40,780 bases of DNA, taken from IMG/VR virus record IMGVR_UViG_3300047355_000078, positions 1-40,780 of that record. One strand, given 5' to 3'. The first letter of the stretch is position 1. Every line of letters begins with the position of its first letter. Both the position numbers and the translations under genes were made by a program. Source of the stretch: a virus. Of the stretch, positions 3,629 to 36,455 are shown one piece after another. The notes below the pieces were generated by a model. That model searched no databases. It saw only the letters and a program-made list of their open reading frames with translations, and was not told where the DNA came from.

Positions 3629-3642
3629 ATTCCCATGGGAAT
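3629..3642. promoter_or_regulatory. 14-bp palindrome, site 5 (AT variant)
   Basis: ATTCCCATGGGAAT, 13 bp before the chosen ATG of the 3656 gene and about 60 bp downstream of the predicted transcription start. Its central ATG (3635) is again in frame with the gene. Confidence 0.85.
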
Positions 3643-3655
3643 AAGGAAAAACACT

Positions 3656-4537
3656 ATGAGCCTTAAAGAGAATGCTCTTATCGTATCGCTGTCGGTTCAA
3701 AAGCCGCAGATGACTAAAGTAGACGCAAAAGGTACCGACGCCGCAGAGCGCGCCAACAACGCGCGCCACGCTGGTGAGTATCGGAAGAACTTGTACCCGA
3801 CGCATCTAACGTCCCCCATACGGACAGTAGAAAGTGCCGCACGTTCTTACATGGAAAGTGAGACCTACCCGTGGATGCGAAGTAAATTCATACTGCCGAA
3901 CCCACGGTTCATGGAATTCATGGATACCATGGGCACGTACGAACTGAGGTATGACCAAGCTACTACTGCGTTCTTGCAAAACTGGGTCAACGTACTTGAT
4001 GAGGCGCGGAGTACGCAGGGGGATATGTTCAACGACTCAGACTACCCCGACGTGACCGAGCTACGCAGGCGCTTCAAATTCGAGGTTATTGTCGAGCCTG
4101 TCACTGACAGCACCGACTTCCGCGTGCAGATGCAGAGTGACGAGATAAGCCAACTAACCGCTCGGGCAAAAAAGCAAGCTAACGACCGCATGAATGATCT
4201 GATGGCCGAGCCGCTCAAGCGTTTGCGTACTGTGATCACTCGTCTCAACCAGACTGTATCCAAGGATGACCGCGTTACCACTGACAAACGCACTGGCCTA
4301 GTCGAGGTCAAGTCGCCGATCTTCCGTGACTCCGTTTGCGATGACATCGCACATGAGATAAGTTTGTTGTATGACTTCATGGATGTCATGCCTGCCAGCG
4401 TGTCCAAGCTTGCGTTGAATGTAGCGGGCGCTACTCCATCTCCCGACGAGCTACGTAATAGCAAAGCCGCACGGGAAAAAACCGAGGCTGATACGTCCGC
4501 ACTACTCGCGACTATCGACTCATTACTTGATGACTAA
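3656..4537 (+). CDS. DUF3150-like protein, part of the MoxR/VWA module
   Basis: 293 residues from ATG 3656, chosen because AAGGAA (3643-3648) is 7 nt upstream; the in-frame ATG 3635 inside palindrome site 5 has no ribosome site. The middle part (PWMRSKFILPNPRFMEFMD, then a helix, then GDMFNDSDYPDVTELRRRF, residues about 70-140) resembles the DUF3150-like proteins that accompany MoxR ATPases and CobT-type VWA proteins in phages and plasmids. The rest is helical, with an acidic C-terminus (SLLDD). It stands first in the set with the AAA+ ATPase at 4814 and the VWA protein at 6114, so an adaptor or substrate-recognition role is likely. The family match is from memory and should be confirmed by profile search. 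Confidence 0.75.
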   Translation: MSLKENALIVSLSVQKPQMTKVDAKGTDAAERANNARHAGEYRKNLYPTHLTSPIRTVESAARSYMESETYPWMRSKFILPNPRFMEFMDTMGTYELRYDQATTAFLQNWVNVLDEARSTQGDMFNDSDYPDVTELRRRFKFEVIVEPVTDSTDFRVQMQSDEISQLTARAKKQANDRMNDLMAEPLKRLRTVITRLNQTVSKDDRVTTDKRTGLVEVKSPIFRDSVCDDIAHEISLLYDFMDVMPASVSKLALNVAGATPSPDELRNSKAAREKTEADTSALLATIDSLLDD

Positions 4538-7541: not shown

Positions 7542-7904
7542 GTGAAGCTAACAAAAGAGGAAATGGCCGAAGTGTTTGAGCTTCGTATGCGGCGTACAAG
7601 TTGGGAAAGCTTGGCGCTAGTTTTTAATGTGTCACCCAATACTTTGAGGAGGTACTACAAAATAGCCGAGGCTGACGGCTTCGCTATATGGCAAAAGCCA
7701 ATAGAACCACAAGAGCCATCAGCGTTACTCAACATATTTGATGCGCTATCAGGTTTTTGTTTTGCCCACAGTGACCTTGAGGTTATTGTTGATGCCAACA
7801 CTGGTAGCACGTTTGAGTGGGGTGAAGTACACAACGCACGGCGCGCTATAAAAGAACTTATTAACTTTGCTAATTCACACGGGATCAAGGAGAACACACT
7901 ATGA
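7542..7904 (+). CDS. HTH-containing small protein
   Basis: 120 residues from GTG 7542, three bases after the upstream stop; no clear ribosome site, so translation is probably coupled. Residues 3-41 (LTKEEMAEVFELRMRRTSWE, then SLALVFNVSPNTLRRYYK) fit a resolvase/transposase-like helix-turn-helix. The remainder shows no known domain. ATG 7563 is an alternative start but would cut the first helix. It is a candidate for binding one of the repeat families in the window, though nothing directly links it to them. Confidence 0.75.
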   Translation: MKLTKEEMAEVFELRMRRTSWESLALVFNVSPNTLRRYYKIAEADGFAIWQKPIEPQEPSALLNIFDALSGFCFAHSDLEVIVDANTGSTFEWGEVHNARRAIKELINFANSHGIKENTL

Positions 7905-8405: not shown

Positions 8406-8522
8406 ATGGACAAAGAACCATGCTCAATAACAGATGACCCGTTCAACGACTACTCCGATTACATCGAGGGTGAGGGGGTGTACAAGAACCACTGGCTGGA
8501 CGAGGAGGAAGAAGAGGAATAA
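8406..8522 (+). CDS. 38-aa very acidic micro-protein
   Basis: ATG 8406 with GAGGAAG 7 nt upstream; TAA at 8520-8522. Of 38 residues about half are Asp or Glu, and it ends in a run of six Glu (LDEEEEEE). The ribosome site, spacing after the previous gene and the conserved operon strand support translation. Acidic micro-proteins are often DNA mimics or anti-host factors in phages, but that is inference only. Confidence 0.6.
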   Translation: MDKEPCSITDDPFNDYSDYIEGEGVYKNHWLDEEEEEE

Positions 8523-8548
8523 AAAAACGCCCATCACTAGGATGGGCG
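8521..8548 (-). terminator. minus-strand rho-independent terminator
   Basis: A perfect 8-bp stem with a 5-nt loop followed on the minus strand by seven T, lying inside a plus-strand operon. It would end the candidate small RNA. Confidence 0.75.
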
Positions 8549-8635
8549 AAGCACTATCGCAAGGAAGATCGTACATGTTGAACTTACCACTATAAGTTCA
8601 CTACCAATTACACCACTTTTTTACTTATCAAACAA
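8521..8635 (-). ncRNA. candidate antisense small RNA with promoter and terminator
   Basis: On the minus strand: TTGTTT (8635-8630), 17-bp spacer, TGTAAT (8612-8607) as promoter; predicted start near 8600; hairpin TGAACTTA/TAAGTTCA (8600-8579, 6-nt loop); about 30-nt linker containing ATCTTCCTTGCG; then a perfect 8-bp GC-rich stem CGCCCATC/GATGGGCG (8548-8528) and seven T (8527-8521). The plus strand has no U-tract after this hairpin, so the terminator is specific for minus-strand transcription. The TCTTCCTT linker is complementary to AAGGAA-type ribosome sites. The -35 is weak (3/6). No ORF is present. Confidence 0.5.
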
Positions 8636-13233: not shown

Positions 13234-13257
13234 TGACTAAACTACTAAGGAGGTTGT

Positions 13258-13641
13258 ATGAACTACGAACAAGCGGCCGAGAAATACCTCAAGGTCAAGA
13301 AAGATATGGAAGCTCTCGACAGGGAGTTCAAAGAGCGCAAAGCTAAAGTGCGCGAAAAGTTAGTTGTATTAGAAAACTGGTTTACTGCAAAAGCTCAAGA
13401 AGACGGGCTGTCGTCAGTCAAGACATCTTGTGGCACTGCGTACTGGTCAACTCATCACTCAGCGACAGTCGCGTCGCGTGAAGACTTTTTTAGCTTTTGT
13501 AGGGATGAAGATGCGTGGGACTTGCTTGAAGCACGTGCGTCTAAAACCGCAGTAAAAAGCTATATCGAGGCGGCAGGTGAACCACCACCCGGCGTCAACT
13601 ACAGCGCAGTAAATGTGTTTAATTTCCGTAGAGCAAACTGA
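13258..13641 (+). CDS. phage protein with N-terminal coiled coil, probably replication-associated
   Basis: 127 residues; very strong AAGGAGG 5 nt before ATG 13258. Residues 8-45 are a heptad-rich charged helix (KVKKDMEALDREFKERKAKV); the second half (GTAYWSTHHSATVASREDFF, then WDLLEARASKTAV and PPPGVNYSAVNV) is a pattern I recall from small unannotated phage proteins encoded next to ssDNA-binding or recombination genes. Biochemical role unknown. The putative ssDNA-binding protein gene follows 10 bp downstream. Confidence 0.8.
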   Translation: MNYEQAAEKYLKVKKDMEALDREFKERKAKVREKLVVLENWFTAKAQEDGLSSVKTSCGTAYWSTHHSATVASREDFFSFCRDEDAWDLLEARASKTAVKSYIEAAGEPPPGVNYSAVNVFNFRRAN

Positions 13642-14551: not shown

Positions 14552-14559
14552 TAAAGAGT

Positions 14560-14580
14560 GAGGCCTACGGGCCTCATTTC
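14560..14580 (+). terminator. short hairpin between SSB and primase genes
   Basis: GAGGCC-TACG-GGCCTC, a perfect 6-bp stem followed only by ATTTC. It may be a weak or partial terminator that lowers expression of the primase relative to the SSB-like gene. Confidence 0.5.
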
Positions 14581-14597
14581 GACTAAGGGGATCGTTG

Positions 14598-17549
14598 GTG
14601 AATACAAAAGAATTTCTAACTAAGGTATGCCCACAAAAAGATAAGATCGTAGTAACGCAGTACAACCACTTAAAGAACAAGTTCTGGAACCGTGAGATAT
14701 ATTCATTCGACGAGTTAGACAGGGCCGAAGCGGACATACTCCGCTGGGATCAACAGCAAGACGTTACGATCTATTACAGTATTGGGGCATTTGCAGATAA
14801 CGTAGAAGTGGGCGCAGACGGACGCTCAAAAATTCGCAGGACACAAAACTTAGCTACTGTATTTAAAACACTTTGTTTCGACTTAGATTGTGGGCAAGAC
14901 AAGCCCTATAAGACCAAAGAAGAAGGTCTAATAAAGTTGGTCGAGGTTGTTAAAGAACTGGGCTTGCCGAAGCCTATGATTGTTTCTTCCGGTAACGGTG
15001 CGCACGTTTATTGGCCGCTGTCTGCCACTATAGAAAAAGATATGTGGGTGTCAGTGTCTAGTGCGCTAAGTGACGCGCTATTCGACAAAGGTTTGGAAAT
15101 AGACGCGAGCAAGATAAAAGACCCGTCTATGGTGCTCCGCCCTGTGGGTAGCTTCCACAAGAAGGCAGAATGGAAACCTGTCGAGGTAATCTTAGAAGGC
15201 GATGGAGACTCAGACATCGCAGTGCTGGCAGGCCTGCTCAAGGACTACATGGGTAAGCCAAAGGCTGATAAGAAAAAGCCTCGTAGTGCGATGCTCGATG
15301 CTGTGCTAGATGAAAGCAATGACCTAGACATCGACTCTATCGCAGAGAAGTGCGCCCAAATAAACGCCTTGTTAGAGAGTGGCGGTGTGCTAGATGCAGG
15401 GGGTAACCCTGTAGATGAGCCTATGTGGCGGGCGTCGTTGGGCATTGCGAAGTTTACCCCAGACCCAGAGGTGTCAGTCGTCTTGTTAGCAGGGGGGCAC
15501 CCTGAGTTTGACTTCGACGCTAACATGGAAAAGCTATCAGGCTGGAAGGGGACTGGTCCCACCACATGCGCGACGCTAGAACAGTTGTGCCCCAAAGGGT
15601 GTAACGATTGCCCATACCGTGGAGGCATGACATCCCCCGCGCAACTCAGTGGTATATCGTCAGAAATAGTTGAAGAAGTTGTTGATGAGGTGACGCAAGA
15701 GGTTGTGACAAAGACCTTCCAACTGCCAGAGGGATACGCAGTAAAAGATGACTGTATTCTCAGGGAGAAGAAGGTAGAAACAGAGCACGGGATTGCGACC
15801 GAGTGGGAGCGTGTAAGCACCTACCAAATGTACATCAAGAGTATTTTCTTTGACCCTATAGAGCTTGAGACATCGATAAAGGTGGCAATTAAATACCCTA
15901 TACGTGGATGGGAAGAGCACGATTTCCCAGTTGAGGTGTTATCTAGTCTAGGCAAAGAGTTTTCCGCTTTCTTACTTAACACGCAGGTGTTTGGATTTAA
16001 AACCGCACCACAGCAAGAAAAGTTACGAGGGTATCTTATGGACTACTTAGAGATGGTTCAGCAGCGAGTAGCTACTGGCTACGACTATTCGACGTTTGGT
16101 TGGCAGAAGGACGGGTCTTTTATCTGTGGCGATACTATCATCAACGCGCCGCACAACACGACAGACCGTAGGATTACAGGCAATGCACGCGACTTCCTAG
16201 ATCGTGTACGGCAAGAGGGTACGCGAGAAGGCTTTGTCGAAGCGATGTCGATGCTCAACCAATCGGGAACTGAAGTAATACGCATGTGCATACTTATCGC
16301 TACGTCAGGCGTGATAGCGAAGGACGTTGGTAACGGATCAAGTATCGTGTCTATCTATTCTACACTGACCACAACAGGTAAAACGCTGGCGTTATTTGCA
16401 GTTAACAGCTTGTATGGGCACCCGAAGGAACTGATACAGGGGCGCAACGACACATCTAATTTTTTGTATTCGATGCGGGGAACCTTAAACAACCTCCCAC
16501 TGACAATCGATGAATTAACTATGGCCGACGAGTATGCAGTAGCAAGCATGGCGTACTCATTTAGTGAGGGAAAAGAAAAGTCCACGCTTACTTCAGATCG
16601 CCGTATGCGCAAACCTGCGACGTGGGATGGTCCGACATTTATGACAACTAACACGTCTTTGATGGACAAGTTTTCTGACGTGCAACAGGAGTCAGAGCCA
16701 CTTCGTGTAAGGACCTTTGAAGTAAAGCAAGATGACAGGGTGTTCGTATCGCTAGAAAACGAAGATGGCACGTCGCTGGCTAGATCTTTCGGAGACAAAC
16801 TTTTTGAAAACTACGGCTGGGCTTTTCCTGAACTTGCAACTGCAGTATGCGACTTAGGTGGTGCAGAAAAGCTGGCGGTGTCAGGGCGCAAGGACTTTAC
16901 AAAAACGTTTGGTTTTAAGTTTTTACCACAGGAACGCTTCTACGAAGCAATGATCATTTCAGCGTGGACCATGGGTAAGATAGGTAAGGCGCTAGGACTG
17001 TTCCCATTCGATGTCAAAGGCACTATTAAGAGCATGCTGGACTGCGTAGAAGATCTTAGGGAAGACACTGAAAAATCTAAGGTAGACGCACTAGATGTTG
17101 TGGGCCAGTTCATGCAGCAACACAACGATCAGATCATCTCAGTTACTAGACAGTACGGCAAAGACGGTAAACCACAGGTGCAGCACCCTGTACCGGTTAA
17201 GGCTTGTATGCGTGCTGAGTTCGTGTACGACAGTAGTAACCCAATAATGCCGGGGAGTACGTTGGCAATAAACCGGTCGTCCTTTAAGAAATATCTAAAG
17301 GACACTAACGACGCAGAAGATCGGGTACTGCGAGAACTCAAAGAGCTTGGTGCCTTGGCTAAACCTAGTCAGCGTGTGACGCTGTACAAGAATTGCAGTG
17401 GTGTTAGTAACCCCGGACAAGCCTATTGTATAATTGTTAACTTAAACCACCCACGGTTTATAAACGCAGTGTCAGGCACTAAGCATAAAAAGCAGAGTGA
17501 CCTCACAGTAGTTATGTTGCAGGGTATACAGGACGACTCCAATGGCTAG
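14598..17549 (+). CDS. primase-helicase fusion (AEP-type primase plus ATPase)
   Basis: 983 residues from GTG 14598 (AAGGGG 7 nt upstream; the TTG at 14595 is less likely). The N-terminal third looks like an archaeo-eukaryotic-type primase: catalytic FDLD (94-97), SGNGAHVYWP (131-140) and RPVGSFHKK (181-189). A Cys cluster (CPKGCNDC, near 331-338) may bind zinc. The C-terminal part has an ATPase with Walker A in STLTTTGKT (near 590-598), Walker B TIDE (near 636) and a sensor Asn in FMTTNTS, resembling DUF927/virulence-type replicative helicases. It should prime and unwind DNA for the polymerase at 8845. The HNH gene overlaps its end by 8 bp. Confidence 0.9.
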   Translation: MNTKEFLTKVCPQKDKIVVTQYNHLKNKFWNREIYSFDELDRAEADILRWDQQQDVTIYYSIGAFADNVEVGADGRSKIRRTQNLATVFKTLCFDLDCGQDKPYKTKEEGLIKLVEVVKELGLPKPMIVSSGNGAHVYWPLSATIEKDMWVSVSSALSDALFDKGLEIDASKIKDPSMVLRPVGSFHKKAEWKPVEVILEGDGDSDIAVLAGLLKDYMGKPKADKKKPRSAMLDAVLDESNDLDIDSIAEKCAQINALLESGGVLDAGGNPVDEPMWRASLGIAKFTPDPEVSVVLLAGGHPEFDFDANMEKLSGWKGTGPTTCATLEQLCPKGCNDCPYRGGMTSPAQLSGISSEIVEEVVDEVTQEVVTKTFQLPEGYAVKDDCILREKKVETEHGIATEWERVSTYQMYIKSIFFDPIELETSIKVAIKYPIRGWEEHDFPVEVLSSLGKEFSAFLLNTQVFGFKTAPQQEKLRGYLMDYLEMVQQRVATGYDYSTFGWQKDGSFICGDTIINAPHNTTDRRITGNARDFLDRVRQEGTREGFVEAMSMLNQSGTEVIRMCILIATSGVIAKDVGNGSSIVSIYSTLTTTGKTLALFAVNSLYGHPKELIQGRNDTSNFLYSMRGTLNNLPLTIDELTMADEYAVASMAYSFSEGKEKSTLTSDRRMRKPATWDGPTFMTTNTSLMDKFSDVQQESEPLRVRTFEVKQDDRVFVSLENEDGTSLARSFGDKLFENYGWAFPELATAVCDLGGAEKLAVSGRKDFTKTFGFKFLPQERFYEAMIISAWTMGKIGKALGLFPFDVKGTIKSMLDCVEDLREDTEKSKVDALDVVGQFMQQHNDQIISVTRQYGKDGKPQVQHPVPVKACMRAEFVYDSSNPIMPGSTLAINRSSFKKYLKDTNDAEDRVLRELKELGALAKPSQRVTLYKNCSGVSNPGQAYCIIVNLNHPRFINAVSGTKHKKQSDLTVVMLQGIQDDSNG

Positions 17550-17793
17550 AGACTACAAGAGCGAGTACAAGAAGTATCACTCGAAAGATGAGCAAAAGAA
17601 AAAACGCGCCGCACGTAACGCAGCGCGTCGTACCATGGAGAAAGAAGGCAAGGTTAGCAAGGGCGATGGCAATGACGTTAATCACAAGAAGCCGCTTGCT
17701 AAAGGTGGTAGCAACGAACGCAGTAACTTGAACGTCAAGCCAAAGTCAGCAAACCGATCGTTCCCCCGCACAAAACGTGCGAGGATGAAGTAA
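17542..17793 (+). CDS. small HNH-like protein
   Basis: 83 residues, highly basic (long Lys/Arg-rich N-terminal helix). The motif DVNHKKPLAKGGSNERSNL, followed by NVKPKSANRS, gives the His and Asn residues of an HNH fold, although it lacks the CxxC zinc knuckles of larger family members. It overlaps the primase end by 8 bp and is the last gene of the plus-strand block. Possible roles are DNA nicking or packaging; small HNH proteins aid terminases in some phages. Role inferred. Confidence 0.8.
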   Translation: MARDYKSEYKKYHSKDEQKKKRAARNAARRTMEKEGKVSKGDGNDVNHKKPLAKGGSNERSNLNVKPKSANRSFPRTKRARMK

Positions 17794-35984: not shown

Positions 35985-36455
35985 CTACGATTTTTGTGAT
36001 GCCCCAAAATAAAAGGACACAACTGCGGACACAAGCCCACCTAAGTACCCCATAACCAAATTAGTTAGCTCCATGGAGTTCTGCTCTGGTGGTAATATCG
36101 TTACAAGCCCTACATAACTACAGAAAAATAAAACCATGATTAGGCCAATAACTCTAGCCGTCCAATCCCGCGAGAAATTTTCTCTAGCGTTCTGAATGTC
36201 TTCAGTCTCAAGCGCAAACACATCTACCTCAAGCTCTTTCATACGTGCTTCAAACGACAACTCAGCCTTCTTTATTTCGACCAGTTGCTCGGGCGTGGCT
36301 TGTTTGAGAGCGCGCTCTATTTTCTGCGGCGCAGGGTCACAACCTAAAACGTCTGCGAGCATAGTCGCAGCTGCGCCACCAACTGGGCCGCCTAGAGCCG
36401 CACCTAAAGTAGGAGCTATCCCCCCGATAACGCCTTTAATTTTATCAAAGTTCAT
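35985..36455 (-). CDS. holin, 3TM (GTA-holin-like) family
   Basis: 156 residues, ATG 36455, overlapping the upstream gene. An N-terminal amphipathic/hydrophobic stretch (GVIGGIAPTLGAALGGPVGG), a charged helix, then NARENFSRDWTARVIGLIMV and two hydrophobic segments (GLIMVLFFCSYVGLVTIL; LVMGYLGGLVSAVVSFYFG). This matches the 3TM holins of gene transfer agents and tailed phages. It opens the inner membrane for the lysozyme encoded next. Confidence 0.9.
   Translation of the reverse strand: MNFDKIKGVIGGIAPTLGAALGGPVGGAAATMLADVLGCDPAPQKIERALKQATPEQLVEIKKAELSFEARMKELEVDVFALETEDIQNARENFSRDWTARVIGLIMVLFFCSYVGLVTILPPEQNSMELTNLVMGYLGGLVSAVVSFYFGASQKS

Follow-up and report, generated by a model that had tools for sequence, protein, structure and literature searches.

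A predicted small-RNA gene, conserved in an uncultivated phage lineage, whose anti-Shine–Dalgarno seed may act on replication-operon genes

Overview

The minus strand of an uncultivated phage genome carries, at 8635-8521 within a rightward replication operon, a compact cassette that, judged from its sequence, is a conserved small-RNA gene long kept in this tailed-phage lineage. On balance, we favour the reading that the predicted RNA, through a seed complementary to Shine–Dalgarno (SD) sequences, lowers translation of genes of the phage's own operon in trans. Trans-acting small RNAs are, to our knowledge, known for few phages, and mostly for temperate phages of model hosts; the one delineated here comes from an uncultivated lineage and from sequence alone, and the evidence for it is the co-variation of RNA and target. 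The approach is a concrete route to post-transcriptional control in phage genomes without a cultured host, and it names a target pair.

The phage genome

The window analysed here is the whole of an uncultivated virus contig, 40,780 bases in length. Rightward genes of replication type extend to about 17.8 kb and encode, among other proteins, a family A DNA polymerase, an SNF2-type helicase, a PD-(D/E)XK nuclease and a DUF927 protein, and beyond them lie long late genes that run leftward (18-40 kb). The initial annotation had the terminator of the cassette opposing all genes, which does not hold for these late genes, as they run leftward too. No close isolate was found, the window polymerase being at most 36% identical to those of the best-covered known phages; a DNA similarity search of a phage collection gave no record related to the window, and the exact 5' region gave 0 matches as a DNA query.

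The early region also contains a recurrent palindrome, TTCCCAYGGGAA, at 429, 1211 (as the variant TTCCCGTGGGAA), 1908, 2230, 3630, 4778, 6078 and 8821, with a weak copy at 7874. Most copies stand immediately 5' of early plus-strand genes, in many cases with ACTTACTTACTTA or AACTTAATTACT coming next, then an SD sequence, and the counterpart in relatives is AATCCCATGGGATT; the palindrome has the look of an early-operon operator or RNA element. The palindrome TTCCCATGGGAA, at 1908-1919 and 3630-3641, contains an ATG used as an ORF start, and the ORFs that start inside it are probably mis-started; the SD sequence fits a start at 3656 better than one at 3635.

Anatomy of the cassette

Every element that had been described from the sequence, namely a promoter pair at 17 bp, an 8-bp hairpin, a linker and a terminator followed by seven T, is present in the cassette (Table 1).

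Table 1. Coordinates of the cassette and of its predicted targets in the window
Feature	Position	Strand	Basis or detail
Promoter, extended -10	8607..8635	-	Sequence: -35 TTGTTT (8635-8630), 17-bp spacer holding the extended -10 TG, -10 TGTAAT (8612-8607)
Predicted small RNA, ~80 nt	8521..8601	-	5' end inferred from the -10; layout kept in relatives
5' hairpin, perfect 8 bp, TGAACTTA/TAAGTTCA	8600-8593 / 8586-8579	-	Sequence and fold
Anti-SD seed and linker GUACGAUCUUCCUUGCGAUAGUG	8551..8573	-	CUUCCUU single-stranded in window fold; TCTTCCTT at 8568-8561
Intrinsic terminator CGCCCATC-CTAGT-GATGGGCG	8521..8548	-	Sequence: 8-bp stem 8548-8528, T7 8527-8521
Predicted primary target, RBS of 127-aa gene	13240..13271	+	Ortholog ranking, swap test, joint fold
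Gene for predicted target protein, 127 aa	13258..13641	+	Fold likeness to Gp157, weakly to host-nuclease inhibitor
Second candidate target, start region of DUF927 gene	14568..14604	+	Ortholog ranking, swap test, joint fold
DUF927 primase/helicase-like gene	14598-17549	+	

The -10 lacks the usual A at -11, and a default sigma-70 scan did not list the cassette promoter among its sites. The terminator ranks second among the terminator-like sites of the first 20 kb, and its T tract overlaps the stop codon of the plus-strand gene ending at 8522. The promoter pattern matches once in the window against 0.37 expected, which is not significant alone, and the folding z of the RNA is -2.3; these two values alone barely suffice, and the cassette exceeds chance because it is conserved in relatives. 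In the window, no Rfam covariance model matched at its gathering score, those of known anti-SD small-RNA families included, and ARAGORN found no tRNA or tmRNA. A tRNA-like reading of the minus strand (GTGTAATTGGTAG, resembling a D-arm) was rejected, as it had no ARAGORN or Rfam match and the region serves as the -10 in relatives. The RNA had further been thought to overlap the leader of the 8651 gene; as predicted (~8601-8521) it leaves a gap of some 50 nt to the 8651 start codon, and the promoter, not the RNA, lies in that leader.

Conservation and inversion in relatives

Polymerase-based searches for relatives gave 72 loci and then 80. A minus-strand cassette of the same layout is found in 15 of the relatives (L003, L005-L009, L011-L016 and L018-L020), always 5' of the polymerase, either directly or with one small gene or 1-1.5 kb between them. 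All 15 carriers fall on one large branch of the DNA-polymerase tree, and the genes beside the cassette often differ. An alignment of 12 cassettes shows invariant promoter positions at the TTG and last T of the -35, two spacer A residues, the TG and T..AAT; the L007 promoter retains TTG, TG and T..AAT, and the class pattern TTG-N17-TG.T..AAT is present in all minus-strand cassettes. The terminator stems differ between clades (CGCCCATC, CGCCCACCC, GCCCAC, AAGCCCGC, AGCCTCC, GCCCTC and CCCCGC), with the partner strand changing in step so that pairing is kept, as compared by eye, the MAFFT alignment of the stems being poor. The stop codon of the preceding plus-strand gene falls within the terminator's A tract in several relatives, and since this gene differs from one relative to another, the cassette behaves as an independent unit.

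An inverted, plus-strand cassette occurs in L021-L027, L033, L040 and L042, some of them cut at a contig end, and in L030. It has a promoter-like pair (TTGCAA-16-TATATT), a hairpin, an exposed UACUCCU and a terminator. Orientation tracks the polymerase tree, the inverted form occupying a sister branch; two label changes suffice for the 15 minus-strand rows and two for the plus-strand version. Promoter-pattern matches 5' of the polymerase in L132, L134, L138-L142, L148 and L154 were set aside and read as coding, because they lie in near-identical long stretches that have no CU linker or terminator. In all, conservation spans about ten lineages, which supports the initial annotation of a complete small-RNA gene whose linker can pair with ribosome-binding sites.

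A separate element was seen in the L036 (L181) genome, where, oriented 26869-26850 on the minus strand, a late-operon terminator is preceded by UUACUCC and by a stretch complementary to GAACTATGA of that genome's own 13258 homologue (z -2.8). The element sits between late genes on their own strand; it is possibly another small RNA.

In RNAfold predictions for 13 versions of the RNA, the CU-rich stretch is fully or largely unpaired in all, as CUUCCUU in the window, CCUUCCUU in L005, CUCCUUCCCCUC in L008, CUCCUCUU in L014, CCCCCCUCUU in L018 and CUCCU within a loop in L040. The expectation that both hairpins would show compensatory changes was borne out by the terminator of every clade but by the 5' hairpin of some clades only, with changes of this kind in the window, L005, L006 and L009. 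L007 and L008 have a weak 5' hairpin and L014, L018 and L019 have none, while the one in L040 and L023 is different, L040 having a larger replacement. With the 5' hairpin varying while the seed is exposed and the terminator paired throughout, the constant parts of the RNA are therefore the seed and the terminator. At the level of sequence and prediction, the RNA shows three features of a trans-encoded base-pairing small RNA: a putative promoter of its own, a terminator with compensated changes and a conserved single-stranded seed for a distant mRNA.

Predicted targets

In 14 genomes, the start region of every SD-bearing gene was scored for pairing with the linkers, on energies of bare duplexes that ignore accessibility and RNA chaperones. 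The 13258 gene came first of 27-28 ortholog groups (Stouffer -5.6 over nine clades), followed by the DUF927 gene at 14598 (-4.0) and the next group at -2.8. When the entire 5' part of the RNA was used, the order held: the 13258 gene scored -6.0 against shuffled RNAs and -4.0 within genomes, and the DUF927 gene -4.6 and -3.0. Clades A, C, D, F and I placed the 13258 gene at rank 1-2; clades H and J show weak targeting of it (rank 5/19 and 9/30; 7/17).

In a swap test, run at two window sizes, each RNA was paired with the homologue in its own genome (cognate) and with those of other genomes. Cognate pairing was better for the 13258 gene (p = 0.0050 and 0.0018; in a repeat, 0.0020 and 0.0032), where the test treats nine lineages as independent, although clades A and C are closely related and the nine points hence not fully independent. 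For DUF927 the values were 0.0033 and 0.22, and in the repeat 0.010 (wider window) and 0.19. The polymerase, PD-(D/E)XK, VRR-NUC, SNF2, 13652 and 17542 genes gave no signal (p 0.13 to 0.99); the 13258 target was picked after inspection of the data, and these negative controls are clean.

The matches can be followed in single genomes. The L007 RNA is complementary to GGAGTA and ATGAAC of its own 13258 homologue, that of L009 to AACTAGGG and that of L040 to AGGAGTAAT, and the L006 RNA complements CGAACAA, codons 3-5 of its homologue. The L005 and L030 contigs are without a 13258 homologue; the L005 RNA predicts that the leader of its homologue should read near ACTAAGGA..GGT..ATGAACNAC. In the joint fold for the window, the linker covers the 13258 gene from -18 to about +2 and leaves both hairpins of the RNA intact, for a gain of -8.0 kcal/mol, compared with -6.7 for the 3656 gene, -2.4 for DUF927 and -2.1 for the 8651 gene.

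These results bear on the targets first suggested. Base-pairing prediction against leaders supports 13258, the best, and DUF927 at 14598, and does not support the sites at 3643 and 8651; the AAGGAA site at 3643-3648 (gene 3656) has a z of -0.2 in the window and +0.6 in the closest relative, ranking 17/38 and 32/37. Nor do they show the proposed early-to-late switch, the conserved predicted targets being replication-operon genes 4.7-6 kb downstream. The start of the late gene 36455 does pair with the window RNA at -29.7 (p 0.005), compared with -22.1 for the 13258 gene in the window, but was not adopted as a target, its homologue in the L003 genome being weaker (-21.5, p 0.06) and no homologue being found in two other genomes. 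That gene (35985-36455, minus strand) has a weak Pfam likeness to a 3-TM holin (E 0.17).

Among phage protein families the 13258 protein hits PHROG 13900 (E 2e-22), whose label, minor head protein, is doubtful because the gene sits between those for the SNF2 helicase and the DUF927 protein; a match to Pfam DUF7307 fell below the cut-off. Its AlphaFold model (pLDDT 91, pTM 0.53) has a long helix and then a mixed part ending in a long strand. It had no match in the PDB; its matches in BFVD include a Gp157 protein from a Siphovirus (E 2e-4) and a weak one to a host-nuclease inhibitor (E 0.014). We infer, short of proof, a replication- or recombination-associated or Gam-like function. Directly 5' of the DUF927 RBS, a terminator-like hairpin on the plus strand (~14559-14576) recurs in relatives (L007 8313, L008 6873, L022 7024 and L028 6256) and suggests partial termination before the DUF927 gene.

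Proposed mechanism and alternatives

In the mechanism that we favour, the minus-strand promoter and terminator seen in the sequence bound an RNA of about 80 nt, which would belong to a unit that, by comparison, is kept across much of the lineage and inverted with the same layout in the sister branch. The exposed CU seed is predicted to pair with the 13258 gene at its SD sequence, and in many cases also at its start codon and codons 2-5, with the DUF927 gene (14598) as a secondary partner. Such pairing would stop ribosome loading and lower translation of both genes, probably as a means of limiting or timing replication or host-takeover functions. Since this operon contains the small-RNA gene in antisense orientation, its read-through mRNA would be a perfect complement of the small RNA and could titrate it. 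A more speculative extension, which we consider doubtful, is a self-limiting circuit in which the antisense-encoded RNA acts in trans on two downstream operon genes, read-through mRNA is its built-in sponge and the balance between sense and antisense transcription sets when host takeover gives way to DNA synthesis; were this true, the inverted version of the sister branch would be a rewired form of the same circuit.

The strongest rival, though an unlikely one, is that the small RNA is real but a general anti-SD regulator, its main targets being host mRNAs or many phage mRNAs and not the 13258 gene. The CU seed does resemble those of known multi-target anti-SD RNAs (PMC8844928), linkers favour ribosome-binding regions over flanking windows in most genomes, and pairing with the 13258 gene is favourable for non-cognate RNAs too; yet cognate beats swapped pairing for two genes only, and a single gene stands out among the ortholog groups. 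Less probable again is a role for the promoter and terminator themselves, in transcription interference or in halting read-through from the leftward late operon, with an RNA that does nothing. The direction of the late genes and a further minus-strand terminator at 17629 would suit this, but stopping read-through needs no adjoining promoter, the inverted cassette of the sister branch would terminate the early operon, and the CU seed and cognate pairing are left unexplained.

Local antisense action on the 8651 gene, as the initial annotation had allowed, or on the operon mRNA at the locus, would draw on the perfect complementarity to read-through mRNA and on the promoter within the 8651 leader. 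The arrangement, however, is not conserved: the neighbour in relatives may be an 8651-type gene, another small gene or the polymerase itself, the cassette lies 1-1.5 kb 5' of the polymerase in L007 and L009, and clade K has the RNA on the same strand as the operon, all of which makes this quite improbable. We give still less credence to a plus-strand leader ORF with its own RBS, which would explain the SD-plus-ATG look of the reverse complement. Short ORFs do follow an SD-like stretch in L008 (MNTRSLFNHYLLT) and L009 (MAPFNHFFT), but they are conserved in neither length nor frame, that stretch has no start codon after it in L014, L016 and L019, a terminator is formed by the A tract and hairpin on the minus strand only, and clade K carries the same kind of seed on the plus strand. 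A chance mix of promoter-like and terminator-like sequence, suggested by the non-significance of the lone promoter match, is scarcely credible for a whole cassette conserved across divergent phages. None of read-through blocking, cis-antisense action, a leader peptide and chance thus accounts for the inverted cassette, the variable neighbours and the swap-test result together, and we return to regulation of the phage's own operon in trans as the preferred reading.

Comparison with known systems

Several known RNAs work in comparable ways, the likeness being one of mode, with none shown to be homologous to the window RNA. The part of a review drawn on here (PMC12197685) gives no example of an RNA that is conserved across an uncultivated lineage and targets the replication operon of the phage encoding it. 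In Sinorhizobium, AbcR1/AbcR2 and NfeR1 (alpha-r15 and related anti-SD small RNAs) act in trans, their CU-rich anti-SD loops or linkers pairing at the RBS to repress translation (PMC8844928), but they are host-encoded with many metabolic targets, and no Rfam match ties them to the window RNA. RoxS and FsrA of Bacillus subtilis pair with target mRNAs through a C-rich seed, RoxS at SD sequences, and there is a sponge RNA, RosA (PMC8216469); these too are host-encoded, and a sequence relation to the window RNA is not shown. VpdS of phage VP882 and PreS of phage lambda are phage-encoded, trans-acting and 50-90 nt long, VpdS affecting both phage and host mRNAs (PMC12197685). They belong, however, to temperate phages and depend on Hfq, and PreS acts on host dnaN, whereas the predicted targets of the window RNA are in its own replication operon. 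That source also describes OOP of lambda and sar of P22 as short phage transcripts from the antisense strand that block a phage gene (PMC12197685); these are cis-encoded opposite their target, whereas the window RNA would reach its predicted target 4.7 kb away through imperfect pairing.
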